Source of the DNA: a virus
IMG/VR virus record: IMGVR_UViG_3300034682_000051
Span: 1 to 23,673 of that record
Length of the DNA: 23,673 bases
Reading direction: 5' to 3' (one strand)
Both the position numbers and the translations under genes were made by a program. The notes under the pieces are model-generated. The model ran no database searches, was not told the DNA's origin, and saw nothing but the letters and a program-made list of their open reading frames with translations. The stretch's first letter is position 1, and every line of letters begins with the position of its first letter. Positions 2,543 to 20,330 of this stretch are shown in pieces.

Positions 2543-2770
2543 TCAGTCGATTTCGATTTGGAACAGCGGCAGGTTTGGTGCCGCCCCCTCGATAGCACCA
2601 TCCCGAACAAACACTTTTTCGCCCACTTGTGCATCACCCCGCGCCAGCAGTTCACCGCCGCCAGGCAGCTGCACGCGGGCCACACCGCTAGCAACAGACA
2701 GCACCGTGGCCACCTGCAAGGGTGGGCGGGCCACCAGGTCAGAAAACGCTTTCCAGATGTTGGTGGTCAT
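2543..2770 (-). CDS. Small conserved phage protein after the tail hub gene
   Basis: This 75-residue protein starts at the ATG at 2770, with AAGG upstream and the stop of the hub gene 10 bp before it. The N-terminus (MTTNIWKAFSDLVARPPLQV) is followed by a likely all-beta core: VATVLSVASGVARVQLPGGG, then VGEKVFVRDGAIEGAAP. The pattern resembles a small OB-like or SH3-like barrel of the kind found in phage tail-tip and lysis-border proteins, but I cannot name a family. It has no signal or membrane segment. The position between tail-tip and lysis genes suggests a minor tail or assembly protein. Real coding status is supported by tight packing and the ribosome site. Function is unknown. Confidence 0.65.
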   Translation of the reverse strand: MTTNIWKAFSDLVARPPLQVATVLSVASGVARVQLPGGGELLARGDAQVGEKVFVRDGAIEGAAPNLPLFQIEID

Positions 2771-2779
2771 GGGTGCCTT

Positions 2780-4666
2780 TCAGTCGGTGCCGTGGGTTTC
2801 CACGGTGAGGGTTTGGCGCAGCGTGGGGCGCTGCCAGTCCAGCGCAGTGCCGCGCACGATGCCCACGCGAGTCACCGCGCCGTCGAGGTAGCGCACGAAC
2901 TTGCCGGGCTGGATCAGCCCCGTGGTGGCCAGCACTGGCAGGCGCAGGCTTACCGTGGCCTGGGGGCCGGTGTCTGCCAACACTGCGGCCGCGCGCTGGC
3001 GGGCTGCGTCCACATGGGTAATGAGTGGGTCGGTGATGCTGGGCGCGTCCACATCGCCAGCGGTACCGGCGCGCTTGGCCTCTACCTGCACACCACCGGC
3101 CACGCCCGCAACGTGCACCCAGTTGTAGGCGGGCTTGCTGGCCCACTCCACCCCTTCCACCTCCACCACATCGGCGGGCAGTTCATAGTCGGGCGTGAGC
3201 GCGCCCCAGGCCCAGGGCATGGCCGGGTAGCGCGGAAGTATGCGCAGGGTTTGCGCCGTGGCGTGCGGCTGCACGTAACCGCCGACGGCCGTGGCAATGG
3301 CGTTGATGGCGCTGATGTAGCTGCCCTGGTGCGCCCACAGGCCTGCAGGCACTTGCCAGTCTGTCAGGCCCCAGGCCACATCCCAGCCGATACCCACGCC
3401 ATTGAGGGTGAGCGCGTCGGCCGCCAGCTGCTGGGCGGTCTTGGTGGTGGCGTTGCCAAAGTTGAGCGATGGCGCATAGGGTGCATCGAGCACCGCGCCC
3501 AGGCCGCGGCCCTGCACCGTGATGCGGGCGCTGCCGTGGCTGCGGCTACGGGCCATGGATTCAGCGCACAGGCGATACGGCACGCCGTTCACCGTGGCTT
3601 CGACCACCACCGGCAGGCCATCCACGGGCGCCAGGTACTCGCGGGCGCTGGCAGGCAAGGTGGACGACCAGCTCCATGTCCAGCTTTCTGCGTCGATGGA
3701 CATTGAGAATGCCTCTGCCTGCAGAGGCACATTGCCCACCACGCGGCGCAGGGTGATGCTGTTGACGGTCACATAAACCTTTCGGATGGGGACAACCACC
3801 GTGCCTGGCTGTGGGCCCGGGTCGGTGCGATGGCAAATGAAGACCAGGCGGCCATCGCCCGTGTACGGTGTGTGGAAAACCAGCAAGCCCAGGCGGGCCG
3901 GGTCGTAGCACGGGGCTGGGCCTGGCGGCGTAGGTAGCAAAGACACGCCCGACCGTGGGCGCCACGCCTCTTGCCAATGCGGCCGCAGCGGCAGGCGCAC
4001 GGGCAGGCCGTCGCCGTAGCGGGTGACAAAGTGCACCTGGAGCGGCACGCCGTGCTGCCAATGGCCACGCATGGCTGCACGCACACGCAACATTTCTTGC
4101 CAATGGCTGCGCGATGCGGCGCGATGCGGCGTGGCCTGCTGCCATCGCAGGGCAACCGCCGCACGTAGGCGTTCGGCCTCTTGCCACAGCAAGTCCACTG
4201 CAGCGCGGCGCAATTGACCCTGTTGCCAGCGCGCCGCGTTGGCAGCGCGAAGCCGCCGGGTGTCTTGCCAGTAGCTTTGCAGCGCACTGCGCCGAGTTGA
4301 AGAATTCTGCCAGCTTGACTGCACGCCAAGCCGCTGCGGCTGCGCCTGCTGCCAAGCTGTACCCAGCGCCGATGCCTGCCCAATGGCTGGCTGCCAATGG
4401 CTGCGCAGCTCATGGCGCAAGCCACCCCTGCTAACGTTTGCATCCCACAGCAACTGCAGGTCTGCAGCGCCCTCTGCCGCAAACTCGGCATCGACTGCAA
4501 GCAAAACGCCACAGGCCAGCCGCACATCCGCAGCACTATCGCCCGCAAAACCAACATCAATGCTGATTTCCACATCAGGCACGACGCTGCCAGAGGTGGC
4601 GTCGCCAAGTACCAGCTTGCCGCTACCACTGGCAGGGCGCAGGAATATGAGCTTGCCGTCAGCCAC
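2780..4666 (-). CDS. Tail hub/tip-like protein with 14-residue Trp repeats
   Basis: This is a 628-residue tail-tip protein. I chose the GTG at 4666 (VADGKLIF): GAGGGG lies just upstream, and the previous gene stops at 4677. Longer in-frame starts overlap that gene. Domains: an N-terminal beta region (about 1-75) with the motif GKLIFLRPASGSGKLVLGD; a repeat domain (about 90-243) with Trp every 14 residues; a second copy of the beta motif (LLVFHTPYTGDGRLVF, about 260-275); then a C-terminal domain (about 295-628) with patterns seen in phage baseplate or tail hub proteins (AINAIATAVGGYV, TDPLITHVDAARQR, TGLIQPGKFVRYLDG). It probably sits at the distal tail, connecting tube and receptor-binding parts. 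I infer the hub role from order and pattern and have no structural proof. Confidence 0.68.
   Translation of the reverse strand: MADGKLIFLRPASGSGKLVLGDATSGSVVPDVEISIDVGFAGDSAADVRLACGVLLAVDAEFAAEGAADLQLLWDANVSRGGLRHELRSHWQPAIGQASALGTAWQQAQPQRLGVQSSWQNSSTRRSALQSYWQDTRRLRAANAARWQQGQLRRAAVDLLWQEAERLRAAVALRWQQATPHRAASRSHWQEMLRVRAAMRGHWQHGVPLQVHFVTRYGDGLPVRLPLRPHWQEAWRPRSGVSLLPTPPGPAPCYDPARLGLLVFHTPYTGDGRLVFICHRTDPGPQPGTVVVPIRKVYVTVNSITLRRVVGNVPLQAEAFSMSIDAESWTWSWSSTLPASAREYLAPVDGLPVVVEATVNGVPYRLCAESMARSRSHGSARITVQGRGLGAVLDAPYAPSLNFGNATTKTAQQLAADALTLNGVGIGWDVAWGLTDWQVPAGLWAHQGSYISAINAIATAVGGYVQPHATAQTLRILPRYPAMPWAWGALTPDYELPADVVEVEGVEWASKPAYNWVHVAGVAGGVQVEAKRAGTAGDVDAPSITDPLITHVDAARQRAAAVLADTGPQATVSLRLPVLATTGLIQPGKFVRYLDGAVTRVGIVRGTALDWQRPTLRQTLTVETHGTD
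3938..4399 (-). repeat. Degenerate 42-bp repeats encoding eleven 14-residue WQ units
   Basis: Within the hub-like protein (numbered from the GTG start), Trp occurs at residues 91, 105, 119, 133, 147, 161, 175, 189 and 203, exactly 14 apart. Tyr is at 217 and Trp again at 231, so the register holds for eleven units. The unit reads roughly x-W-Q-x5-R-A/S-A-x3, for example LWQEAERLRAAVAL and RWQQGQLRRAAVDL. The DNA shows the same period of 42 bp, with TGCCA recurring on the plus strand, but the copies have diverged. Fourteen residues is two heptads, so a helical or coiled-coil array with Trp on one face is likely. The 154-residue region has no stop or frame break. Confidence 0.88.
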
Positions 4667-4676
4667 ATGCGCCCCT

Positions 4677-5111
4677 CTACCCGACCAGGCCGGTGCCAAG
4701 CAGCACCAGACCACCCTCATACAGCAGCGTTCCCGCAGTTCCCTGCAGCACCCAGGGCCCAGCGTCACCTGTAGGCGTCAAGCCACCAGCACCGTCGCTA
4801 ACATTGCCATCCTGGTCAGTCACCTGGCCAGTGGCCAACACGGTCGCGTCATCCGCCGCCACCCACTCACCCCAGGTCGCAGCCCCGGTGGCAGTCACCA
4901 CATCGTTGTCGGTCGCCGCGCTGAGCTGGATTCGCCCATCAGCAGATCGAACGGTGCCGCAAGGCTTGGCCAGCTTGCGCACGGCAAGCAGCGTGCCACC
5001 TTCGGAGGTATAGAGCTTGATAGAGCTGACGCCAGGGCCCGCATCAGCCAACTCAATGCTGGCTGCGTTGCGTGCGGCGCGGGCATCTTGGGTCAACACA
5101 AGGCTGCGCAT
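4677..5111 (-). CDS. Conserved tail-tip protein of unknown function (144 aa)
   Basis: This 144-residue protein starts at the ATG at 5111, with the previous stop one base away (TGAC ATG), so translation is probably coupled. The sequence is mostly Gly, Ala, Thr and Val with predicted beta strands: ISSIKLYTSEGGTLLAV-like strands in the first half, then ATWGEWVAADDATVLATGQV and a C-terminal GPWVLQGTAGTLLYEGG. It has no signal peptide, membrane helix or catalytic motif. It lies among tail-tip genes and is probably a virion component. The C-terminal GTLLYEGGLVLLGTG loosely resembles the beta motif of the following hub-like protein. I do not recognise a named family. Confidence 0.65.
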   Translation of the reverse strand: MRSLVLTQDARAARNAASIELADAGPGVSSIKLYTSEGGTLLAVRKLAKPCGTVRSADGRIQLSAATDNDVVTATGAATWGEWVAADDATVLATGQVTDQDGNVSDGAGGLTPTGDAGPWVLQGTAGTLLYEGGLVLLGTGLVG

Positions 5112-5112
5112 G

Positions 5113-5451
5113 TCAAGCAGCCTTCACCGCAACCACGGGGCCTGCCGCATCGCACTCATGCGCGCCAGTCAGGTCGATAGCCACGGGGTAGTAAGAAGCG
5201 CCGACCTCCAGCCCAATAGGCCAGTAGTAGCCACCGGCGTCAGAAAGCCCTTCCCAGGCGCAATACCCATCGACCAGCCGATGCAGCCGCACACGGGCGC
5301 CAGCGATTGGCACCTCTGGCGACGTTGGGCCGGGCTTGACCATGACACGGTTGTTGTTGGTGATGGTGCCCGATGTGTCCGCAGCCAGGCGCCAGTCTTT
5401 TCCAGGGCCACTGGCGGGCCCAATCAACCGCTGAAACTCAATAGTTGCCAT
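5113..5451 (-). CDS. Small beta-sandwich-like tail-region protein
   Basis: This 112-residue protein starts at the ATG at 5451. A strong GGAGGT lies 8 bases upstream and includes the TAA stop of the preceding gene, so the two are coupled. The centre reads IAGARVRLHRLVDGYCAWEG, then LSDAGGYYWPIGLEVG and YYPVAIDLTG. The pattern G-A-x-V-x-L ... S/T-D-A-x-G-x-Y ... L-x-x-G-x-x-Y is typical of carboxypeptidase-regulatory or transthyretin-like beta-sandwich domains. Such domains often decorate phage tails. I infer a structural role at the tail tip, perhaps in sugar or surface binding. No enzymatic motif is seen. Confidence 0.65.
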   Translation of the reverse strand: MATIEFQRLIGPASGPGKDWRLAADTSGTITNNNRVMVKPGPTSPEVPIAGARVRLHRLVDGYCAWEGLSDAGGYYWPIGLEVGASYYPVAIDLTGAHECDAAGPVVAVKAA

Positions 5452-5457
5452 GGCTGG

Positions 5458-6648
5458 TTACCTCCACGGCCCGGAAATGTCAATAAGGTTGACGCCGTCT
5501 GGCGTCGAGGCAAGGCCACCGCCCGAGGTTCTATTGGCTGTCGCCAGCAGCAGGCGCCCCGCGTACTCACCAGCACCGCCAATCACACTCCCGGCAGGAA
5601 TGGAGGACAACACCCCAGACTGCGGAATGTGCAGCAGCCCCGGCACCTCAGCGCGAACAGGGCCAGCCGCTGCAGTTCCGTTGCGAAGCAACCTACGCCC
5701 ATACCAAAGTCGCCCGTCAATACTCGCGCCCAAAGCGCCAAAGGACCCATCATTCCCCGATGAGCCGGAGTCAACTGCACCCACAGCGGTCAAAGACGTA
5801 GCGATAGTGGATCCACTCGCACCACCGAATACTCGCGCCATATAGATCGATGGTGAACCCACAGAGGATGCATCAAAAGCCCCGGAGCTGTTGCTCTGCG
5901 TTGAAGTCGTAGTGCAAGAGATTGCCGCAGACCAGGCATCACCGCCTTGAGCCACTGGCAACATGTCACCAAACCCACGCACTGGCGCAGCGAGGTAAGT
6001 AGCATTGCCAGAAGAAGCGGCAGCTACAGCCATCAGGACGGTACGGCTGTCAGCGACAAGGTGGTAGTAAACGGCTGTTGCATTGGCCGCAGTGCTTTTT
6101 TGCAAATACCCACCGCCACTGATCTGCGCATCCGTCGGGAACAAGCCGCTACCCGTATCGCCGTCGCTCATTGTTTCAAAGCCACGCAGGCGGGCAACCG
6201 TGGTGCCGGAGTCCTCCACGCGGTAACAGAACTTTGCGCTGGCCGGGTCGGTGCTGCGGTACACCGCCAGATTGCTACCGCTAAAGGCCTTCTCCCAGCT
6301 GCCCACCGGCGCCACCTTGATGGTGATGACGCCCGTGGCTGCGCCATCTGGCGCAGTGGTCGCCCAGGTGATGGAGCTGCTGGTGGCGCCAAGCACACGG
6401 GCCTCGCCATTGAGAGCCGCTGGCGTAGTGGCGCCCTCCACCAGCACCACGGTGTGTTTGTCGAAAGACTGGCCACTGTTGAGCGTTGCGGTAGCAATGC
6501 CGCCAGATACCGTCACCGACAGCGCCGTGACTTGACCAAAGCCGTTGAGCAGAAAAGCGTCCAGCGCGGCGATGAGCGTGGCGGGAGTGCCAGAGATTTG
6601 CGGCGCGCCACGCATGCCGCTGTGAATCCATTTGACTGGAAAAGCCAT
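5458..6648 (-). CDS. Tail-tip structural protein of unknown function (396 aa)
   Basis: This is a 396-residue protein starting MAFPVKWIHSGMRGAPQISG at the ATG at 6648. The preceding stop is 15 bp upstream and AAAGGCG serves as a weak ribosome site. The first ~120 residues contain Gly/Thr-rich beta repeats (VTVSGGIATATLNSGQSFD, HTVVLVEGATTPAALNGEAR). The rest is beta-rich with YLQKSTAANATAVYYHLVAD, SIYMARVFGG and a GASIDGRLWYGRRLL segment. It has no signal peptide or membrane helix. The overall composition suggests an extended, possibly trimeric virion protein of the tail tip. The family appears in phages of related hosts as an uncharacterised tail protein; this is from memory and not strong. 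A receptor-contacting role is possible. Confidence 0.7.
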   Translation of the reverse strand: MAFPVKWIHSGMRGAPQISGTPATLIAALDAFLLNGFGQVTALSVTVSGGIATATLNSGQSFDKHTVVLVEGATTPAALNGEARVLGATSSSITWATTAPDGAATGVITIKVAPVGSWEKAFSGSNLAVYRSTDPASAKFCYRVEDSGTTVARLRGFETMSDGDTGSGLFPTDAQISGGGYLQKSTAANATAVYYHLVADSRTVLMAVAAASSGNATYLAAPVRGFGDMLPVAQGGDAWSAAISCTTTSTQSNSSGAFDASSVGSPSIYMARVFGGASGSTIATSLTAVGAVDSGSSGNDGSFGALGASIDGRLWYGRRLLRNGTAAAGPVRAEVPGLLHIPQSGVLSSIPAGSVIGGAGEYAGRLLLATANRTSGGGLASTPDGVNLIDISGPWR

Positions 6649-6662
6649 GGTGTTCTACGCCT

Positions 6663-8582
6663 TTAGAAAGTGCTTTCGGGGTCTCGGCCCACGTCGCCGC
6701 GCTGCACGATCCAGCAGCTGTCATCAATGCCCGCAGGGGTACCTGGCTGCGTGCAGCGCACGCAGTCAATCGGGGCCTCGGCGCCAACGGTGTCAATAAA
6801 CAGGGTGTTGCCTGCCACCCAACCAGACCCCCATCCACCAGCGGGAATCGTCATGTAGGGCACACCAGCCGCCACGTTCATGGGCGAGAAGGCCTCGCCG
6901 ATGTTTCCCGCGCCGATCTGGCCGAGGTGTTGGCCAATCAGGTCAAAGCTGGTACCGCCAGTGCGAATCCGAAGCGCCCAGCGCTCGGTGATGGCGCCAC
7001 GGTTGTTGACCTGAATGGGGAAATTCACGTTGTCAAACGAAGCCGTGGCAGGCCCTGAGGCTGGGTCAACACCGTCATACCAGGTGGTGCCGTTCCAGCT
7101 CAGCTGGTCATACACCCGCGAGACGCGCGCAAACCGGTCACCCTGGCGCAGCGCTGTGGAGAAAACGGCACCCACGGGGAAGGCGTAGCCCACGGGCTGC
7201 GTCAGCTTCACCTTGCCGTCAATGCGAACCTCGGCGATCTGCCGGTACACCTCGGTACGACCCACCACGCGAATGAGCGCGGGGTAGCCCGTCAGGTCGG
7301 TGAACTGGACGGTTCCAGCGTCCAGATTGGCCGTGTAGCCGGTGGAGATTTCAGCGCCGGTGGCGTCATCCAGCACTTGGATAAAAGACAGCCGCTCATG
7401 GCCCACGTTGTAGGTCACCAGGCTGGGCGCGAAGGCAGAACCGCCGTGGGTGACGCCCACCACACAGGTGTCGCCTGGCCGCGCATAGGCCACGCGCCCA
7501 TCGGGTGGCAGGGCCGCTGGGTCAATCCCCATCAGGCTCACATCCACCGGCAGGTAGATGTAGCTCACCGCGCTGTAGCGCAGCGTGGTGGGGTCTACCG
7601 GCCACGGGCGCCAAATCTTACCCACCTGCACAGCGCCCACCTCGGCGGCGTCATACCACCATTCGGCCTTGTCGTCTGCGGTCAGGTCGGCATCGAGTAC
7701 GAAGTCGCCAAACTGCAGCTCTACCCCACCGCGCGCAAATTCGATCTTGCCACGCATATGGCTGCCAGTGATGTTGCCCTGCGCATCGACATTTGCCGTG
7801 AGGGTTGCGCCCTGCAGATCCACCACCGTGAGCACAAAGCCACCCGGGCCAGCGCGCAGCGGCGCGGCGTCGGTGCTGAAAAACAGGCTCGCCGTGCTCC
7901 ACTGGTCAGCCACGGTGAAAAGGCTTTGCAACTGAAAGTCCGTGGAGCCTGTGCCGCCCACCACGTAGTCGGTCATCAGGGCCACACCCTCCTGGTAGTT
8001 CACCGTGCCGCTGGCAATGCCCGGGTCGGTGTCCGTGCGGCCCCGGTAAATCACCCCCTCAAAATCGGTGTAGGTCTGACCCATCCAGCGAAACTGCACG
8101 CTGCCAGGAACGATACGGTGGGCGGTATAGGGGCACAAGTCCAGCACCACATTGGGCGGGGTGAAGGTGCTAGTGCTGGCGCGTGGCGCAGCTGCCCCCA
8201 CCCGGTAGCGGGTCACCACAGAGCTGCCTGCCAGCATTTCCTCGCCCACAGTCGCAGTGGAGTATTCGCCGCCCTTTTTGGAGCTGGAGTTGCTGGAGCC
8301 TTCACCATCCATACCAACGCGCTCAAACTCGCTGGCGTCTTCATGGTCAGACTTGTAGCTGGTGGTGATGCGGTCAAACGAAATGGCCTTGAGCACCAAA
8401 GTCTTGACCGCGTAATTCACGGTGCCCATGGCACCAATGAAATTGCCCAAGCCATCATCTGTGACGGTGCGCACGGCCACGATGCGCTTGTCTGCAGTCG
8501 TGCCCGTTTCTTCGGTCAGGGTTGCACTGCTGCCGGTGGCGGTCTGGATGCGGATGGGCCGGGAGATAGATACGACGCTCAT
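6663..8582 (-). CDS. Large tail-tip beta-module protein (639 aa)
   Basis: This 639-residue protein starts at the ATG at 8582 (MSVVSISRPIRIQ), with GGAGA 7 bases upstream. A longer in-frame start would run into the previous gene. It contains TVTDDGLGNFIGAMGTVNYA (about residues 40-60) and a second degenerate copy, GTVNYQEGVALMTDY (about 220). Both match a module repeated in the neighbouring upstream protein. Other beta-rich parts include DLQGATLTANVDAQGNITG and a C-terminal section ending with paired Cys (IDCVRCTQPG ... DDSCWIV). It is probably a structural part of the distal tail acting with the 564-residue protein. There is no catalytic motif, and the exact role is unknown. Confidence 0.72.
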   Translation of the reverse strand: MSVVSISRPIRIQTATGSSATLTEETGTTADKRIVAVRTVTDDGLGNFIGAMGTVNYAVKTLVLKAISFDRITTSYKSDHEDASEFERVGMDGEGSSNSSSKKGGEYSTATVGEEMLAGSSVVTRYRVGAAAPRASTSTFTPPNVVLDLCPYTAHRIVPGSVQFRWMGQTYTDFEGVIYRGRTDTDPGIASGTVNYQEGVALMTDYVVGGTGSTDFQLQSLFTVADQWSTASLFFSTDAAPLRAGPGGFVLTVVDLQGATLTANVDAQGNITGSHMRGKIEFARGGVELQFGDFVLDADLTADDKAEWWYDAAEVGAVQVGKIWRPWPVDPTTLRYSAVSYIYLPVDVSLMGIDPAALPPDGRVAYARPGDTCVVGVTHGGSAFAPSLVTYNVGHERLSFIQVLDDATGAEISTGYTANLDAGTVQFTDLTGYPALIRVVGRTEVYRQIAEVRIDGKVKLTQPVGYAFPVGAVFSTALRQGDRFARVSRVYDQLSWNGTTWYDGVDPASGPATASFDNVNFPIQVNNRGAITERWALRIRTGGTSFDLIGQHLGQIGAGNIGEAFSPMNVAAGVPYMTIPAGGWGSGWVAGNTLFIDTVGAEAPIDCVRCTQPGTPAGIDDSCWIVQRGDVGRDPESTF

Positions 8583-10332: not shown

Positions 10333-10719
10333 TTAAACCTCGATCAACCGCAGGGTTGCGTAATAGGGATTGGTGGCGGTGGGCAGCTCGGGGCGGCCCA
10401 CGGGCTTGGCCTCAAAGGGCGAGTCGGGCGCAAACATCACGGTGAAGGTGCGGCCATCGGCCAGGGTGAGCGTGTGGGTCGCACTGGTGGAGCCAGCCAG
10501 GGCGTAGAGCTGGGCAACCACGCCACGAGCCAGCCAACCCGCATCCACCTCACCCGCCAGGGTGATGGGGCGGCCCGCAAGGCGGGGCGCCACGTCCACC
10601 AGCAAAGCACCGGTGAGGCTGTAGGTGACGGCCCGCTCTACGGGCACCCAGTCAAATTCATCGACCCAAACCATGCCGCGCGGCACGGCAACGCTGCCGA
10701 GGGTGTGGTGTGTTGTCAT
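10333..10719 (-). CDS. Tail protein following the tape measure (128 aa, distal-tail candidate)
   Basis: This 128-residue protein starts at the ATG at 10719, overlapping the tape measure stop by 4 bp (ATGA). The sequence is compact and beta-rich: GMVWVDEFDWVPVERAVTYS, ALLVDVAPRLAGRPITLAGE and THTLTLADGRTFTVMFAPDS. The gene directly after a tape measure usually encodes a distal tail or hub-adaptor protein in siphophages. That fits the position but is inference, because I do not recognise a Dit or gpM signature in the sequence. There is no signal peptide, membrane helix or catalytic motif. A 41-bp gap separates it from the next gene. Confidence 0.7.
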   Translation of the reverse strand: MTTHHTLGSVAVPRGMVWVDEFDWVPVERAVTYSLTGALLVDVAPRLAGRPITLAGEVDAGWLARGVVAQLYALAGSTSATHTLTLADGRTFTVMFAPDSPFEAKPVGRPELPTATNPYYATLRLIEV

Positions 10720-13541
10720 TGGATGGCCGCCCCTCTGGCCTGGGCGAGTGCGCGCAGCAGGTCAACCTCTGTCTCCGCGCTCTTGGCATCGGTGTGGCGG
10801 GTTTGGCCGCGCACCATGCCCCAGTCACCCACGCCATTGATGGTGATGTTGTTGATGTAGGTGTTGCCGCCCGTGCCGGTACCTGGGCCAGGCGCTGGCG
10901 CAGGGGTGGGCGATGGGGCCGGGGCGTTGGGGTTGCGCTGGCGGTCGCGGATTTCCTTGTCGCGCTTGGCGCGCTCCACAATGTCGGCGGCCTGAATCTT
11001 GCCGGCCTCGTCGTATTTGGAGTATTCGGCCACCTTTCCCAAAGCCTCGGACAAAGTGCCGTACTTGCCAGCCCAGCGCTTTTGCGCGCTGCTGGCTTCG
11101 TAGTCCACCCCGCCCTGCGCGTTCAGGAACTGCTTGGACAGCTCTTCTGCAACCACATCTTCAAGACCTGACTGCGTGAGGTAATCAATGATGGCCGAGC
11201 GCGTCCAGACAAATTGCTGCTCGCTGGGCTTGCGGTTGGTGATACTGCTGGCCGAGGTGTCTGCGTTCTTTTGCGCCTGGGCTGCCTCCAGGAACTGCCC
11301 CTTGGCCGCCAGAGCTTTGGCGCCAGCGTCGGTGTAGGCATCGCCCAGCGCCTGCACCGAGCCCACCTGCTCACGCGCCGCTGAGGCTGCCCCCCGGTGG
11401 CCTTGCGCAACATCGCCCAAACCCGACTTGGCCTTGTGCACAGCCTCCAGCGTGGCCTTGCCAGCTTCATCCACCTCCACACGGTAGCCGCGTGTTGCAG
11501 CTTCAGCCGTCACCCACGAAGGGGCAATGCCCTTGTTTGCAGCAATCGCATCCTCCGCCGCCTTACGGAAAGCGGCAGACAAATCCTCTGCCGTGGCGGT
11601 GCCAGATTCCTTGATGGTCTGGTAATCGCGCTTTGCGTTTTCCGCTTGGCGTGTGAGGTCGGCACTACTGGTAACGCCCAGGCGCTGGAACGCAGCCGCC
11701 ACCTGGGCGGCCATGTCCTCGGCGCTTTGAGTGGTCTGCCCCATGGCCCGGTTGAGCTGCTGGAGCTTTTCAGCCGCACCCTGCAGGTCACCGTTCTGCA
11801 CCAGGCTTGCGTATTCCTCGCGCAGGCGACGCACCGATTCAGCGTGCTCTGTAGCGGCAGATTGGGCTGCGTGGTCGGCCTGCGCCTTGGCTTCCACCTT
11901 CGCCTTGGCATCGGCTGCTGCGCGGCCGCTGGCCTCGATCTCGCGGGCCATGGCCGTGATGCTGGCCTGCGCGTCTGCTGCCGCCTTACCACCCGCCTCT
12001 ACCGAGCGCACCAAGCCCTGGAACGCATCGCGTGCAGTTTGGGCGCTGGCGGCGGTGTCGTCCAGAGAGTCCGACGCTTTGTCGCGCATGGCCTGCGCAG
12101 CCTCGCCAAATGCCTGGGCGCTGTTGCGCGCATCCTCTGCAGCCAAAGCGAACGACTTGGACAGCTCGCCAAATGTCACAGCCGACAACCCGTCACGCAA
12201 CAGGGCCACGCCTTCCATCACCTTGGCGGCCACTTCGGCAAAGACGCTGCCGATGCCATAAATGGCCGTGAGCACAGCGTTAACCCCGGCGCTCATCACG
12301 CCATAGGCCAGCTGCACCGTATTGCCCGCATTGGTGGCGTACGTGCCAATTTGCGTGAAAGTCTCGCCAGTGCGGTCAGCAAAGCCGCGCAGGTCTGCCA
12401 GCACCTTGTTGAAGTCCACCGTGGCCAGGAACTCGCGCACCCACTTGATGCCCGCCTGGAAGGCTGCGGCGATGGCTTCGCCAAACTTGCCCACCGTGCC
12501 ATCGGCCACCGCGCTGCGCAGCGCACCCGCCAACTGGTCAACGCCATCCTTCAAGACAGGCAACACAGGCGTGCCCAGCGCATCCTTGACTGTCTTCCAC
12601 GCGGCAGCCAACCCTGAGAGCGAACCATTGAGGTTGTTACGCATCACCTCAGCGGTGGCAGCAGCGCTACCCTGGGCATTCTTGAGCTGGGTCGTTAAGC
12701 CATCCAGCGCGCCCATGCCCTGGTTGAGCAGCGCACGCAGGGCGGGCCCTGCCTCGGTACCCACTGCCAGGATGGCCTTGCTGCCAGCTGGGCCAGCGGC
12801 TGCCAGCTCGTGCAGTGCCTTTTCAAAGTTGTTGGTGGTGATGCCAGCCGCCGCCAGTTCATTGCGAAACTTGCTGGCCGGGTCTGCAAACTGGCTCAGG
12901 ATGGAGTTGAGCGCGGTACCGGCCCGGCTGGCGTCGATACCGGCGTCGGCAAACTTGCCGATGATGGCCACCGTGGTTTCAAGGCTCAGCCCCAGGCTGT
13001 TGGCCACGGGGGCGGCATAGCTCAGCGCCTGGGCGAGACCCTCCACGCTGGTATTGGTGGCGTTGGCACCCTTGGCCAACACATCGGCCACGCGCCCGGC
13101 GTCGGTGAACGCCAGGCCCATGCCCATGACGGCCTTGGTGACGTATTCACTTGCGGTGGCTAGTTCAATATTACCCGCCTGAGCCAGAGCCAGCACGGCT
13201 GGCAAGGTGGCGATGGCGTCTTTGCTATTCAGCCCGGCCTTGGCAAGGTTTTCAAGCGCGCCTGCGGCTTCAGTGCTGGTGAATTTGGTGGTGGCGCCAG
13301 CGTCCTCGGCGGCAGCACGGAGGGCTGCCATTTCGTCGGCACTGGCGCCGGTGGCCGATTGCACCCGGCTCAGCACCTCTTCCAAGTCTGCAGCGCCATT
13401 CACTACGCCCACAAAGGCGTTGATGCCGAAGTAAGTGGCAATGGCCGCACCCACCGCCACCACCTTCGTCTGCAAACTACCGAACACCGCCGAGGCGTTG
13501 TCCTTGGCGTTGATCAGAATTTCGATGGGCTTGAATGCCAT
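10716..13541 (-). CDS. Tail tape measure protein (TP901 type)
   Basis: This 941-residue protein sets tail length by spanning the tube during assembly. The N-terminus (MAFKPIEILINAKDNASAVF) and the section with SRVQSATGASADEMAALRAA, TKFTSTEAAGALENLAKAG and VEGLAQALSYAAPVANSLG match the TP901 tape measure core (about residues 55-260). Hydrophobic segments lie near residues 25-50 and 400-430. A long Ala/Glu/Lys-rich coiled-coil region follows (about 450-700), then a Pro-rich linker (APAPSPTPAPAPGPG) and a short C-terminal beta segment (NTYINNITINGV). I see no lytic enzyme domain. At about 0.15 nm per residue it would predict a tail near 140 nm. It starts only 23 bp after the tail tube gene, with no chaperone gene between and no clear Shine-Dalgarno sequence. 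Confidence 0.93.
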   Translation of the reverse strand: MAFKPIEILINAKDNASAVFGSLQTKVVAVGAAIATYFGINAFVGVVNGAADLEEVLSRVQSATGASADEMAALRAAAEDAGATTKFTSTEAAGALENLAKAGLNSKDAIATLPAVLALAQAGNIELATASEYVTKAVMGMGLAFTDAGRVADVLAKGANATNTSVEGLAQALSYAAPVANSLGLSLETTVAIIGKFADAGIDASRAGTALNSILSQFADPASKFRNELAAAGITTNNFEKALHELAAAGPAGSKAILAVGTEAGPALRALLNQGMGALDGLTTQLKNAQGSAAATAEVMRNNLNGSLSGLAAAWKTVKDALGTPVLPVLKDGVDQLAGALRSAVADGTVGKFGEAIAAAFQAGIKWVREFLATVDFNKVLADLRGFADRTGETFTQIGTYATNAGNTVQLAYGVMSAGVNAVLTAIYGIGSVFAEVAAKVMEGVALLRDGLSAVTFGELSKSFALAAEDARNSAQAFGEAAQAMRDKASDSLDDTAASAQTARDAFQGLVRSVEAGGKAAADAQASITAMAREIEASGRAAADAKAKVEAKAQADHAAQSAATEHAESVRRLREEYASLVQNGDLQGAAEKLQQLNRAMGQTTQSAEDMAAQVAAAFQRLGVTSSADLTRQAENAKRDYQTIKESGTATAEDLSAAFRKAAEDAIAANKGIAPSWVTAEAATRGYRVEVDEAGKATLEAVHKAKSGLGDVAQGHRGAASAAREQVGSVQALGDAYTDAGAKALAAKGQFLEAAQAQKNADTSASSITNRKPSEQQFVWTRSAIIDYLTQSGLEDVVAEELSKQFLNAQGGVDYEASSAQKRWAGKYGTLSEALGKVAEYSKYDEAGKIQAADIVERAKRDKEIRDRQRNPNAPAPSPTPAPAPGPGTGTGGNTYINNITINGVGDWGMVRGQTRHTDAKSAETEVDLLRALAQARGAAIQ

Positions 13542-15535: not shown

Positions 15536-17575
15536 TCAGGCGCCAGCGTTGGTGACTGCGCCGCGATAGTCCACAGCGGCCACGCCGTAGTCCAGGCGCA
15601 CCTTGTAGCGAGCGCCGTCCACATCGAAGCCGTTTTGCAGTTCGATGTAGGGCTCTTGCACGCCATCGAGGAAGGCGACTTCCAGCACGGGCGCTTCGGT
15701 AGCGTCGGCAAACAGGTAGCGGCGGGTGCCGCCCAGGCGGGGGGTGTCCACGATGTCGCGGAACAGGCCGTTGACCACGTTGGGCTTTTGCAGCTTGTTG
15801 GCGGTGTCGGGGTCGTACAGCGCTTCGTTGATGCTGCGGGCAGTGCCGCCCAGGCCGATAGGCACCAGCAGTACGGATGGGCGCAGATCCAGATAGTCGT
15901 TGCCCGACACGTCCTTTTGCGAGGCCATGGCCACACGGTCTGCATCCAGCGCAGCCATGGAGATGGCAGCGGCAGTGCTGATGTTGCCGTGGTCAGCATG
16001 GAACAGCGTCTTGCCGTCGCCCATGGCTGGGCCCAGGCCGCCGTTCAAAGCCAGCAGCGCGTACACATCCACCTCGACCGTGCGGGCAGCTGCGCGGCCC
16101 AGCATGCCAGCCAGGCCCACAAAGGCGCCCAGGTCATCGTTGATGATGGCCGTGCGGCTGAGGTTGATGATGTTGCCCTTGGTGCCTGCGGTGATGCTGC
16201 CCTTTTCGCCATCGGGGATGGATTTGTTGACATACTCGCCCAGCTCGTTGACGGCATCCAGGCTGCCGAAGGAGCCGACGCGGTAGCGGTTGTGCGCGCG
16301 GAAGTCGCTCACGCTGCCGGTGGCGCAGAAGCGATTCCAAGTGAGCGCCTGGGTGGCGTAGGCAGCCTGCAGCGCCTTGTGCATGGTGTTTTCCAGCAGC
16401 ACGGGAAAGTCGCTGGTGCCTTGGGTGAAGGCGGCTGCCACCACGTCCAACTGACCCATGCCTTCCACCTTTTTGCCTGCGCGCTCAGCGGACGCGCGGG
16501 CCAGATCCAGCAGCTTGGCGCCACGGAATGGGTTGGAGGCCATGGAGGCGCGCACCTTGTCGCTCACCTTCACGCCGGCACGCACCAGAAGCGCGTCAGA
16601 CGCGGCGGCGATGCGCTTGTCGGCTTCGTCTTCGGAGGTTTCCACCTTGGGGAACGAACCGGCGGGGTTGGCTGGCTCGGTGCCCTTACCCATTTCAGCC
16701 AGCAAGCGAGCCTGGATGGTTTCGATGGTCAGGGCTGGGTCTGCCAGCACCTCGGTCTGAAGCGCGGCAATTTCAGGGCACGAGGCAAAGGGCTTAAACA
16801 GGGCCAGCACCTTGGCGTTGTCGTCTTTGGTGCGAGCGAAAGCGGCAGGTTGAGCCGCCGGCGTGTTTTCTGCGGGCATGGAATGCTCCTGTGGTTTGGC
16901 GGCGGCTGCCGCAGGTTGAGAAAGTGGTTTGTGTGCGGCAGCGGCAGGCGCGGCTGCAGGCTTGAAGCGGGAAAGGTCAAAGCTGCTGGCCAGCGATGCA
17001 GCCACAGCAGCTTCAGCGCCAACGGTGTCGGCAAAGCCCTCTTCCACGGCTTCGCTAGCCAGGAACCAGTGGTCTTTGCCATCGGTGAGCATGGCCAGGG
17101 CTTCGTCGTATGTCTTGCCGCTCTTGTCGGCGTAGGCGCTGGCCATGGCCTTGGCGTAGCGATCCAGAATGTCGGCCTGCTCGCGCAGCTCCACGGCGTT
17201 GCCGCCTGCGTAAGACCAAGGGGCGTGAATCATCATTTGGCTGTTTTCAGCCATGGTGATGGTGTCGCCCGCCATGGCGATGTAGCTGGCGCAGCTGATG
17301 GCCACGCCATCGATGTGCACGGCCACAGTGGCACGGTGGCGCTTGAGAGCGTTGTAGATGGCCAGGCCATCAGGCACGCTGCCGCCGTAGCTGTTGATGC
17401 GCAGGTTGATGGCGTCCACATCCAGCGCAGCCAGATCACGCACCATGTTGGCAGCGATCACGCCGTCTTCATTCCAGCGGTCGCCAATGTTTCCGTAGAT
17501 GAACACATCAGCAGCCACCGGCTTTTCACCAGCGGCCTGCGGTGCCTGGGCTTTGATTTCATACCATTTCGCCAT
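15536..17575 (-). CDS. ClpP-like prohead protease fused to major capsid protein
   Basis: This 679-residue protein joins two roles. Residues about 20-195 are a ClpP/S49-type protease: INSYGGSV (60-67), GVAISCAS with the likely catalytic Ser94, IAMAGD (99-104), and MMIHAPW with the catalytic His117. It would cleave head proteins during prohead maturation. Residues about 205-232 are an Ala/Pro-rich linker. Residues about 233-330 are helical and charged, as in scaffold or delta domains. The rest is a HK97-fold capsid region resembling Mu gpT-type proteins (AARTVEVDVYALLALNGG, GKTLFHADHGN). The ATG at 17575 follows GAAGG. Such protease-capsid fusions are known in some phages. A strong internal start at 16879 suggests that capsid protein is also made alone. 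Self-cleavage near the linker is likely. Confidence 0.9.
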   Translation of the reverse strand: MAKWYEIKAQAPQAAGEKPVAADVFIYGNIGDRWNEDGVIAANMVRDLAALDVDAINLRINSYGGSVPDGLAIYNALKRHRATVAVHIDGVAISCASYIAMAGDTITMAENSQMMIHAPWSYAGGNAVELREQADILDRYAKAMASAYADKSGKTYDEALAMLTDGKDHWFLASEAVEEGFADTVGAEAAVAASLASSFDLSRFKPAAAPAAAAHKPLSQPAAAAAKPQEHSMPAENTPAAQPAAFARTKDDNAKVLALFKPFASCPEIAALQTEVLADPALTIETIQARLLAEMGKGTEPANPAGSFPKVETSEDEADKRIAAASDALLVRAGVKVSDKVRASMASNPFRGAKLLDLARASAERAGKKVEGMGQLDVVAAAFTQGTSDFPVLLENTMHKALQAAYATQALTWNRFCATGSVSDFRAHNRYRVGSFGSLDAVNELGEYVNKSIPDGEKGSITAGTKGNIINLSRTAIINDDLGAFVGLAGMLGRAAARTVEVDVYALLALNGGLGPAMGDGKTLFHADHGNISTAAAISMAALDADRVAMASQKDVSGNDYLDLRPSVLLVPIGLGGTARSINEALYDPDTANKLQKPNVVNGLFRDIVDTPRLGGTRRYLFADATEAPVLEVAFLDGVQEPYIELQNGFDVDGARYKVRLDYGVAAVDYRGAVTNAGA
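16877..16890 (-). promoter_or_regulatory. Internal ribosome binding site and ATG for capsid-only product
   Basis: Inside the fused gene, AGGAG (16890-16886) stands 6 bases before an in-frame ATG (16879-16877), which is codon 233 (MPAENTPAAQPAAF). This site is better than the one at the gene's own start. Initiation here would give a 447-residue scaffold-plus-capsid protein without protease, in excess over the fusion. The position just after the Ala/Pro linker, at the domain boundary, argues for function. It resembles the nested C/Nu3 arrangement of lambda in logic. Confidence 0.7.
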
Positions 17576-17712: not shown

Positions 17713-18003
17713 TCAATTCGGCTGCTGGTATTCGGCAGGCAAGTTCTTTCGTGCCCGCTCCTTCAAATAGGCCTTGTAGCAATGATCCGGCCCCTGCCAG
17801 AAGAACAGCAGGTTGATGGGCTTCATGGTGAGCTTGCCGAAAATCTTGCCGTCCCGGTATGCGCGGTAGCTGCGCGCAGAGAGCGTTTCGTCGGCGTAGC
17901 TGATCGTGCCGTCCAGTGGCGGAATCAGAGCGTTCACCAGCTGGTCAGCCGCGATGAACACCTGCTCACAGTAGGCTTTTATCAAACGTAATGCCTGCAG
18001 CAT
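17713..18003 (-). CDS. Conserved phage protein of unknown function at end of fibre cassette
   Basis: This 96-residue protein begins at the ATG at 18003, which follows GAGGAGGAAGCAA, one of the strongest ribosome sites in the window. This start overlaps the end of the DUF4376 gene by 38 bp. The sequence has an N-terminal helix (MLQALRLIKAYCEQVFIAAD), then LIPPLDGTISYADETLSARS, and PINLLFFWQGPDHCYKAYLK with a basic end. I recall the motif YADETLSAR...LLFFWQ..HC..AY from small proteins in other prophages but know no function. There is no signal peptide. The exposed hydrophobic LLFFW and the nearby Cys-His are worth noting. High expected translation compared with its neighbours suggests a specific role. 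Confidence 0.7.
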   Translation of the reverse strand: MLQALRLIKAYCEQVFIAADQLVNALIPPLDGTISYADETLSARSYRAYRDGKIFGKLTMKPINLLFFWQGPDHCYKAYLKERARKNLPAEYQQPN

Positions 18004-18541
18004 TTGCTTCCTCCTCGATGGATGTGGGCCAGCCCGTTGAAAAGTCGTAGTCCTGCGGCGCCTCGCTGGCTTCCATGGCAAGGCGGTGCGCTTCGGCGGC
18101 AGTGAAGATGGCGGTATCGCTGGCGGCTGTGGCGGCGACGATGGCCTGAGCCAATGTGGGCGTCATGGCCACAAATACAGGCGGCGGGGTGAGCGTGAGC
18201 GTTTTCCACTGCAGCCCTGCGGGGATGTTGGAGCCGAGCAGCACCAGGCCGAGCTGCTGGGTGCGGCTTTTCTGGTCGCTGTGGAACCAGTGCTGGCCGA
18301 CCTTCACGCCGAGGGATGCACGGCGGTCGCGCTCTGCCTTGATGGATTCCCAGGCGGCGGCGCGGCGCTGCTCGATTGGAGTCAGCTCTGCGGGCTCCGG
18401 CACTCCGCCAGAAATGAGCCACTGCTTGTATTCCAGATAATCGGGATTTGTGTTTGGCGACTCAGGCGTGTCAACCGTCGGAATCGTGATGTTTCCGTTT
18501 TTAATGACATGCCCCTGCCCTGTCAGCTTATAGGCTGTCAT
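17966..18541 (-). CDS. DUF4376-containing fibre-associated protein
   Basis: This 191-residue protein starts at the ATG at 18541, overlapping the fibre gene stop by 4 bp. The N-terminal ~60 residues resemble the short region common in fibre assembly proteins (YKLTGQGHVIKNGNITIPT ... NPDYLEYKQWLISGGVPEP). The remainder fits DUF4376: WESIKAERDRRASLGVKV, HWFHSDQKSRTQQLGLVL, LQWKTLTLTPPPVFVAMTPT and IFTAAEAHRLAM. DUF4376 proteins usually follow phage fibre genes and act as fibre chaperones or as small C-terminal fibre parts. That is the likely role here. Because the cassette lies in the head genes, the target fibre might be on the head and not the tail. Confidence 0.78.
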   Translation of the reverse strand: MTAYKLTGQGHVIKNGNITIPTVDTPESPNTNPDYLEYKQWLISGGVPEPAELTPIEQRRAAAWESIKAERDRRASLGVKVGQHWFHSDQKSRTQQLGLVLLGSNIPAGLQWKTLTLTPPPVFVAMTPTLAQAIVAATAASDTAIFTAAEAHRLAMEASEAPQDYDFSTGWPTSIEEEANAAGITFDKSLL

Positions 18542-19863
18542 AGGTATTGACCCCCTGCGCTCACAGTACCAGCCACGTTTCCAGGGTAGTAGGTCGCCCC
18601 CGCGCTGTTGCTAAGAATGACGCCGTTCGCGGTGACGTCGTATCGTTTCCCAGTGGCCGCACCCGAGAACGTTGCCGCGTAATAGACGCACTGCCCACAG
18701 AACAGGGCTTGAACAAAAGCCCCACTGAAAGCTGGAGTGCCGACAAGTGTTGTTGTGATGGCCTGCTCCGAACGAAAAGCACCACCTGCAGTGGCCCGCG
18801 CGTGATACCACGCACCGGCTGAAATTTCGTAACTACCGACCACGCGCAACAAGCCACCATTTGCGTACAGATGAACGCCGAACGCGCCCACAGCTCCGCA
18901 TACGATATTGCTCACCTCGACGTTGCTGTAATCTCTGGAGGTGATTGCACTAGCGCTTGTGGACTCGACCTTGACGCCTTGAACGCGATACAAGCCAACT
19001 CCAGCAAAGAGCAACGTATTAGTTGATGACGTTAGAACCACAGACGATGGGCTTGCGGCATTGCCCAGCAGGATGACCCGGCCAGAACCAATCGTCGCAC
19101 CGCCTGTGGACGCCCCCGTGTAGGTGCCGTCGGCTATCTGAATTGTCAAGTCGTAGGTGCCAAGATCCAGGTTACCAGCCACAGTGAGGGCTTTCTGGAT
19201 TGTCAGAAACGCACCGCCTGCCGTGTTGGTCAGGCCGTCGTTGCTGTCGCTGCCATCCGTGCGAACGTAATACGTCCGAGGTGCAGACAGTTTTTCGCGC
19301 ACGGCGGCTTCGTCTGCCTTGGCACCGATCTGTGCCTGCAATTTGCCGATGGCTGCGAGCACTGTGTCAGTTGCAACAACCGCAGCGCTCGTCGCAGTGG
19401 ACAGTCCTGTGAGCACCGCCGCGCGCACATCAGTTGCGAAGTCGCGCCAGGACTTGTCCCCACGCCAGTATTTCGCAGCGGTATCGGCTGTGATCTCTGG
19501 CTCTGCACCGATGGCAGCACGCGCAGCGGCCTCGTCGGCGCCGGCAGCGATGACGGCAGGCTTGTCGGCAATGCCAGCCCACGAAGTGGTGCCAGCAGGC
19601 CCAGGGTCTCCAGTTTCACCCTTTGGCCCCTGAATGCCCGGCAGGCCTTGCTCGCCCTGCGGGCCCTGGGCGCCCCGCTGGATCCACGCCACTGGCTCGG
19701 CAGCCGCAAGCATCCACTCGGTTTGGTCAGATAGCTGCAGGCAATACTTGCCCAGATCGGCAGGCAGGGGCACCAAAGCCAGCCGCGCGGCCTCATCGAC
19801 TACGCGCCAGTTGTGCGGTGCGTGCACTTCGCCTGGCTCAATTTCTGAGTGTTCGATGGTCAT
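18538..19863 (-). CDS. Phage fibre with collagen-like stem and beta-helix domain
   Basis: This 441-residue protein starts at the ATG at 19863, overlapping the previous stop as ATGA. Residues 1-63 form a virion-anchor type domain (GEVHAPHNWRVVDEAARLAL ... TEWMLAAAEPVAWIQ). Residues 64-91 are nine Gly-X-Y triplets (GAQGPQGEQGLPGIQGPKG onward), predicting a collagen-like triple helix and so a trimer. Residues about 92-195 are helical and Ala-rich. From about 196, TYYVRTDGSDSNDGLTNTAG and FLTIQKAL begin a right-handed beta-helix domain typical of phage fibres and tailspikes, ending in YYPGNVAGTVSAGG. I see no obvious catalytic motif. The role is probably adhesion to a surface glycan or protein. 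The location between portal and protease genes is unusual. Confidence 0.82.
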   Translation of the reverse strand: MTIEHSEIEPGEVHAPHNWRVVDEAARLALVPLPADLGKYCLQLSDQTEWMLAAAEPVAWIQRGAQGPQGEQGLPGIQGPKGETGDPGPAGTTSWAGIADKPAVIAAGADEAAARAAIGAEPEITADTAAKYWRGDKSWRDFATDVRAAVLTGLSTATSAAVVATDTVLAAIGKLQAQIGAKADEAAVREKLSAPRTYYVRTDGSDSNDGLTNTAGGAFLTIQKALTVAGNLDLGTYDLTIQIADGTYTGASTGGATIGSGRVILLGNAASPSSVVLTSSTNTLLFAGVGLYRVQGVKVESTSASAITSRDYSNVEVSNIVCGAVGAFGVHLYANGGLLRVVGSYEISAGAWYHARATAGGAFRSEQAITTTLVGTPAFSGAFVQALFCGQCVYYAATFSGAATGKRYDVTANGVILSNSAGATYYPGNVAGTVSAGGQYL

Positions 19864-20330
19864 GTTTTCACTACGTATTGGCCGTTAACCACCACGGCCT
19901 GGCCGTTCACGGTCACGGCGTTTGCAGGCACACCGCTGCCAGCGGATAGCTGGATGCCGATGCGGTAAACGCTGGTACCGCGGCGAATGAACATTTCGTC
20001 GCCCGCCTCGACGGTGGTGGTGGGCTGCACGGCGTTGGGGTCAAAGCCCTTGACGATGGTGGCCGAGCCACTGCTACCACCACGTGCGCCAGCAGGCCCG
20101 CGCAAATCAACCCACTTACCCCAAGCGCCGGTGGGCAGCTCAAAGCGCAGCTTAGTGCCCTGCCACTGGTGGCTGGGCATGGGGCCGGTGTCGCCCTTGT
20201 CTCCTTTGGCGCCCTTCTCGCCACGCTCGCCCTGCGCCTGGGCAATGGCGGCGGCTACCAGGCGCGCATCGGCTGCGGCGCGCGCCTGGCGCAGCCGCTT
20301 TTGCTGCAGGAGCATGACGGCAGTGGTCAC
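19860..20330 (-). CDS. Small collagen-like virion protein
   Basis: This is a 156-residue protein. The start is GTG at 20330, overlapping the portal TGA (GTGA), and the stop overlaps the next ATG, so it is coupled on both sides. Residues about 8-32 are a helical Ala/Arg-rich region (LLQQKRLRQARAAADARLVA). Residues about 34-50 are Gly-X-Y triplets rich in Lys/Glu/Asp (GERGEKGAKGDKGDTGP), favourable for a triple helix. Next comes HQWQGTKLRFELPTGAWGKW, a motif seen in phage collagen-like proteins, with a second short Gly-rich part (GPAGARGGSSGSA). The C-terminal ~60 residues are beta (AGDEMFIRRGTSVYRIGIQL). It could be a fibre base, adaptor or head decoration. The precise function is unknown. Confidence 0.72.
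   Translation of the reverse strand: MTTAVMLLQQKRLRQARAAADARLVAAAIAQAQGERGEKGAKGDKGDTGPMPSHQWQGTKLRFELPTGAWGKWVDLRGPAGARGGSSGSATIVKGFDPNAVQPTTTVEAGDEMFIRRGTSVYRIGIQLSAGSGVPANAVTVNGQAVVVNGQYVVKT

Follow-up and report, generated by a model that had tools for sequence, protein, structure and literature searches.

The tail hub protein encoded in the virus sequence analysed here (IMG/VR record IMGVR_UViG_3300034682_000051, positions 1 to 23,673, hereafter "the window") carries, ahead of its hub fold, an array of eleven 14-residue units that is hypervariable in sequence and fixed in number in nearly all relatives, and that is swapped between phages as a cassette together with the genes upstream of it. 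As a whole, these properties are best explained by a fixed-size beta-repeat domain borne on the hub and exchanged as a cassette, which would serve in adhesin docking and host recognition, a reading to which we assign a probability of about 0.5.

A repeat array within a tail hub protein

2780-4666, minus strand: tail hub gene, 628 aa, GTG start at 4666 assigned by homology (PHROG 6079 tail protein, E 4e-143; hub fold by Foldseek)
2783-3814, minus strand: gp27/gp44/VgrG-type hub domain
3935-4396, minus strand: array of eleven 14-residue units with the consensus [WFYH]-Q-[ED]-[AG]-x-[RP]-[LV]-R-x-[AG]-V-x-S-[RP]
3977-4018, minus strand: unit 10, the Tyr unit, distinct family-wide, with Phe favoured at position 0 and Gly at position 1
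3935-3976, minus strand: unit 11, array end (WQEAxxPxxG), the most conserved unit
4607-4657, minus strand: N-flank hairpin (GKLIFLRPASGSGKLV), closer to the same protein's C-flank than to the C-flanks of others
4430-4600, minus strand: two degenerate repeats of about 29 residues between N-flank and array, variable in number in relatives
3833-3889, minus strand: C-flank hairpin (GLLVFHTPYTGDGRLVFIC), inside which DNA identity with the related locus L001 resumes

The hub protein matches PHROG 6079 over nearly the whole profile (9-603 of 605, E 3.8e-143). An alternative start proposed by the ORF tool (GTG 4768) overlaps the upstream gene, and GTG 4666, which sits behind a GAGGGG motif, is preferred because the starts of relatives match it. 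Residues 300-628 were modelled by AlphaFold (monomer) with pLDDT above 90 and match tail hubs by Foldseek, including Neisseria 3d37 (E 7e-20), Mu gp44 (1wru, E 3e-15), VgrG, and T4 gp27, while a Foldseek comparison to viral models returned mainly hub-type matches and a profile match to 1wru was obtained at E 0.017. The C-terminal half of the protein is a gp27/gp44-type tail hub. The tape measure gene (10716-13541) lies upstream on the same strand and in the same tail cluster, and the protein is best read as the central hub, putatively trimeric, of a non-contractile tail.

The array spans residues 91-244 (154 residues, read from 4396 down to 3935) without an indel, its units being, in order, WQPAIGQASALGTA, WQQAQPQRLGVQSS, WQNSSTRRSALQSY, WQDTRRLRAANAAR, WQQGQLRRAAVDLL, WQEAERLRAAVALR, WQQATPHRAASRSH, WQEMLRVRAAMRGH, WQHGVPLQVHFVTR, YGDGLPVRLPLRPH, and WQEAWRPRSGVSLL, with Trp as the aromatic of the first nine, Tyr in unit 10, and Trp again in unit 11. 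This uninterrupted eleven-unit register, reported in a first-pass annotation of the window, was confirmed by a shuffle test, in which the longest chain of Trp or Tyr at any constant step of 5-40 residues reached 11, compared to a maximum of 5 in 5000 shuffles of the protein. The placement of the array in a tail hub-like protein likewise stands, although the coordinates first given (3938-4399) were one codon off. No tandem repeat is left in the DNA of the array region, and the register is therefore kept at the protein level; the earlier proposal that selection acts on register also stands. The further statement that the array belongs to no described family also agrees with our searches, since Pfam and NCBIfam gave no family match for the hub protein and PHROG 6079 is labelled just "tail protein".

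The two flanking hairpins (LxF, LNLG, and similar motifs) are more alike within than between proteins (35.8 vs 26.8, p 7e-26), as if both met or capped the same fold. The adjoining repeat of about 29 residues (xLxGxLPxLxGxVxL) occurs in one to about five copies across relatives (e.g. L016), unlike the fixed array. In Vibrio phage 2.096.O (MG592666.1; L384, 1631-1772), two CRISPR spacers with 84 nt spacing are annotated within the start of the hub gene; this stretch translates to 28-residue coding repeats of the LxF hairpin, and its annotation as CRISPR is very likely wrong.

Fixed unit number across relatives

Loci from Comamonadaceae, other Burkholderiales, Marinobacter, and others emerged when viral contigs and bacterial genomes were scanned; the bacterial genome scan gave no match with a single-protein query and yielded loci with an alignment query. 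Phage records with the array include Curvibacter PCA1, Acidovorax ACF1, Pseudomonas Haddon, Stenotrophomonas S1, and marine phages. The array is shared as a family feature by PHROG 6079 and its distant marine relatives. Three loci (L094, L095, and L096) hold an identical prophage-like sequence in bins named Eggerthellaceae, Aeriscardovia, and Clostridia, most likely through binning errors.

Within the family, aromatic residues recur at lags of 14, 28, 42, and 56, and pairs of Trp in relatives are strongly enriched at lag 14 (172 vs 18 expected) and lag 28 (202 vs 17 expected). Unit position 0 is occupied by Trp, Phe, or Tyr and often by His, above all in the Marinobacter group, and position 3 by Ala or Gly. 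Because a generic cyclic profile undercounted units in divergent groups, we relied instead on anchor distances in 192 aligned proteins from which near duplicates had been removed. Counted from a conserved Arg ahead of the array to the last unit's aromatic, the distance was 150-158 residues in 185 of these, which corresponds to 11 units plus a few single-residue insertions. These insertions fall in units 4-8, mainly at unit position 8-9 and, in two units, at position 3 or 5, so that the regular Trp spacing expected from the first-pass annotation holds in relatives except for single residues added at defined places in the middle units. The seven exceptions comprise six Pseudomonas-type and L198-200 hubs that are about 40 residues longer, with an inserted FxF hairpin visible in Haddon, and one misplaced anchor (L294).

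Among more distant members, 11 units were counted by eye in Stenotrophomonas S1 (26% identity), 10 or 11 in Shewanella 1/44, Vibrio 1.055, and Vibrio 2.096, depending on the chosen start of the array, and probably 10 in Pseudoalteromonas HS6. An apparent count of 12 in the L030 group was rejected, as the additional Trp sits within the last unit. The unit number is fixed at 11 in nearly all relatives, and the gain and loss in steps of 14 residues that had been raised for comparison was not seen among them. A copy number kept across very distant phages with nearly free letters represents an unusual case in protein evolution.

Hypervariability and joint exchange with upstream genes

3849-7488, minus strand: block dissimilar in DNA to L001, with identities of 92% (hub side) and 70% (upstream) in its flanks
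4677-5111, minus strand: 144-aa gene for a virion structural protein (PHROG 3758), within the exchanged block
5113-5451, minus strand: 112-aa gene, likewise within the exchanged block, judged by eye a possible counterpart of the small connector domain phrog_27013 of relatives
5458-6648, minus strand: 396-aa tail gene in the exchanged block (PHROG 9998/9600), candidate adhesin
2543-2770, minus strand: 75-aa downstream gene (PHROG 5076), part of a hub fusion in L007

Hubs that are 94-99% identical may carry arrays with just 25-33% identity, as for the window and L001 (hub 94%, array 25%). Synonymous change approaches saturation in the array and is much smaller in the hub (e.g. pS 0.77 vs 0.10 for L371/L373), indicating that the array is replaced by recombination. 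Across 122 pairs of near-identical hub DNA, 98 had similar arrays, 24 had unrelated arrays, and none was intermediate, these pairs being non-independent and the exchanged ones coming from few lineages (mainly S1-like, window/L001, and L319/L326/L342). In the 24 array-swapped pairs, the 300-1200 nt upstream were replaced too (0.03 vs 0.70), and the sequence 2-3 kb upstream was often conserved. On the downstream side, the S1 group has its breakpoint near unit 11, and the window/L001 pair has it inside the C-flank hairpin. Overall, the array is swapped between phages as a cassette with its upstream genes, and it shows the exchange between near-identical backbones that marks receptor-binding cassettes.

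Where synonymous sites were unsaturated, dN/dS was mostly 0.16-0.36 in the array compared to 0.03-0.14 in the hub, which places the array under relaxed purifying selection, and no positive selection on the array was seen in these pairs. Hub values above 2 (L055/L058, L302/L306) were left out as an alignment artefact in which hub codons were paired from unequal ends, as was an N-region value of 9.7 (L008/L364) that rests on unequal start sites.

In relatives, the upstream genes often encode lectin-like Laminin_G_3 (Laminin_G/ConA-like), F5/8 type C (discoidin-like), and WD40-like (propeller) domains, and several of these proteins end in the small common domain phrog_27013, which is a separate gene in others. 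The window genes at 5458-6648, 5113-5451, and 4677-5111 appear to correspond to these upstream genes; the 112-aa gene had no family match in the window. On the other side of the hub gene, an uncultured freshwater phage (L007, 1852-4233) has hub and PHROG 5076 protein as a single fusion, hinting that the two proteins touch.

Elsewhere in the window, a ClpP-type prohead protease and a major capsid protein (Phage_capsid_4) are joined in one protein (15536-17575), a fusion already known from PHROG 133 and 4523. For the lambda-type portal (20327-22330), the Pfam match stops at residue 379 out of 667, and the protein's long C-terminal extension, in which Ala, Glu, Gln, and Arg abound, looks coiled-coil-like by eye. 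Between the portal and protease-capsid genes, and outside of the tail cluster, sit a DUF4376 gene and two adjacent genes whose products contain collagen-like stretches of the tail fibre type (17966-20330).

Predicted fold and possible role of the array

Averaged over units, hydrophobicity in the array has a period of 2, with positions 0, 4, 6, 10, and 12 high and most odd positions low, and this even/odd pattern recurs when three divergent groups (WQ, S1-like, and His) are taken one by one, each with a permutation p of 0.02-0.03 after position 0 is left out. Columns at the same unit position are coupled one unit (14 residues, z 7.5) and two units (28 residues, z 14.2) away, with no coupling at neighbouring offsets, although such in-register coupling may also arise from duplication or homogenisation of units. 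Within one protein, a unit resembles the second-next unit more closely than its neighbour, and the real repeat is therefore 28 residues. The array thus combines the period-2 strands and the in-register coupling between coils that are looked for in a beta-solenoid. A parallel, in-register coil of two strands accounts for these data most simply, with homogenisation of unit pairs as a caveat, and the array is probably a beta-repeat domain of a solenoid-like kind. Each unit would contribute one strand, about nine residues long and running through positions 5-14 up to the aromatic, plus a short Q-E/D-A turn of polar character, and units would pair into 28-residue coils with like positions stacked in register, the resulting two-strand solenoid being closed at each end by the related hairpins. 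Sequence searches found no solved structure resembling the array, and AlphaFold monomer prediction gave no confident fold for it, drawing one strand per unit in the S1 homologue (starts at 57, 71, 84, 99, 112, 127, 141, and 157; pLDDT 44-50) and a helix over part of the array in the window protein (residues 129-203; pLDDT 63-76).

A beta array with another topology, either an antiparallel meander, sheet, or barrel, or one interwoven among the three hub chains, seems to us possible but somewhat unlikely. One strand per unit and odd/even alternation would fit strands of alternating direction, and failure of the monomer prediction is what an interwoven trimer would produce; however, the column coupling gave no antiparallel signal at any turn centre, and a three-chain beta-helix should show coupling at three units, not two.

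With regard to function, the faces of a solenoid scaffold would vary freely, while recombination exchanges the whole array between phages along with the upstream genes. The array may then dock an adhesin on the hub, or form a host-binding adhesin jointly with the upstream gene products, and a fixed unit number would preserve the fit to the hub. Exchanged cassettes of this type are generally known to set host range. We infer a role in recognition from the gene neighbourhood, the pattern of variation, and this general role of such cassettes. An unlikely alternative is that the array is purely structural, a spacer or anchor that engages the distal tail protein or the tape measure through its aromatics, its variation reflecting drift and general mosaicism. 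Its fixed length and register would suit such a part, and tape measure proteins do use Trp/Phe markers at fixed steps as anchors (PMC3271669). Yet tape measure repeats vary in number, and the divergence of the array follows the upstream genes more than it follows the hub or genes further upstream.

The first-pass annotation had read each unit as two heptads of a regular helical structure, and a long coiled-coil shaft on the hub trimer would draw on that length of 14 and on the helix modelled in the window protein. This reading is unsupported, and a coiled coil was rejected as very improbable: the hydrophobic period is 2 rather than near 3.5, Pro and Gly recur at set positions (22% of units have Pro at position 5, and 31% have Gly at position 9), there is no helical i+4 or i+7 signal in the column coupling, at least one Pro falls within the modelled helix segment in 87 of 93 aligned relatives, and the homologue is predicted with strands. 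Least credible of all is a beta barrel that the hub trimer would insert into the outer membrane to open it, with the aromatics as a girdle. We know of no precedent for this, and despite amphipathic strands, strand-end aromatics, and tight polar turns, the hydrophobic face is too polar (Ala, Ser, Thr, Gln, and Arg are common at positions 8, 10, and 12).

If the array is a docking or recognition surface, one compact module with known borders could allow host range to be read and tested for a large set of siphophages of beta- and gammaproteobacteria, and the hub, commonly regarded as a conserved core, would be the place where specificity is attached. Tentatively, and with less than even confidence, the array may represent a general phage recognition scaffold, in which 11 units are frozen, the faces are free, and the whole is traded as a cassette with matching adhesins. 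The logic would be comparable to that of repeat-based recognition proteins, but with the copy number frozen.

Comparison with known systems

The hub fold of residues 300-628 is shared with gp27/gp44/VgrG-type hubs such as Mu gp44 (1wru) and Neisseria 3d37, for which, to our knowledge, no N-terminal 14-residue array is known. The window protein agrees with PHROG 6079 over nearly its full length, and the tested relatives match this family as well; the descriptions of the "tail protein" families PHROG 6079 and 1887 include no repeat, fixed number, or exchange. Beta-solenoids with 14-15 residue coils and in-register ladders exist, e.g. the ryegrass antifreeze protein, and have a similar repeat length; they have no sequence relation to the array, the fold of which is a predicted one. 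Tape measure proteins carry Trp/Phe markers every 11 or 18 residues, in a number of repeats that is variable and scales with tail length (PMC3271669). Aromatics at fixed steps are thus common to both systems, whereas the array is fixed in number, beta-like, and located in a hub, and a ruler of the tape-measure type was rejected on the constancy of its unit number. Alishewanella phage LSH1 gp25 is a single-chain hub with a C-terminal antireceptor (PMC13243795); the hub chain carries the presumed receptor-binding part in both cases, at the C-terminus in LSH1, in contrast to the N-terminal and repetitive variable part of the window hub. No description of such an array was found in the family libraries or the open-access literature searched: the hub is already known, and what is new is a repeat family that keeps its copy number frozen and is exchanged between phages.
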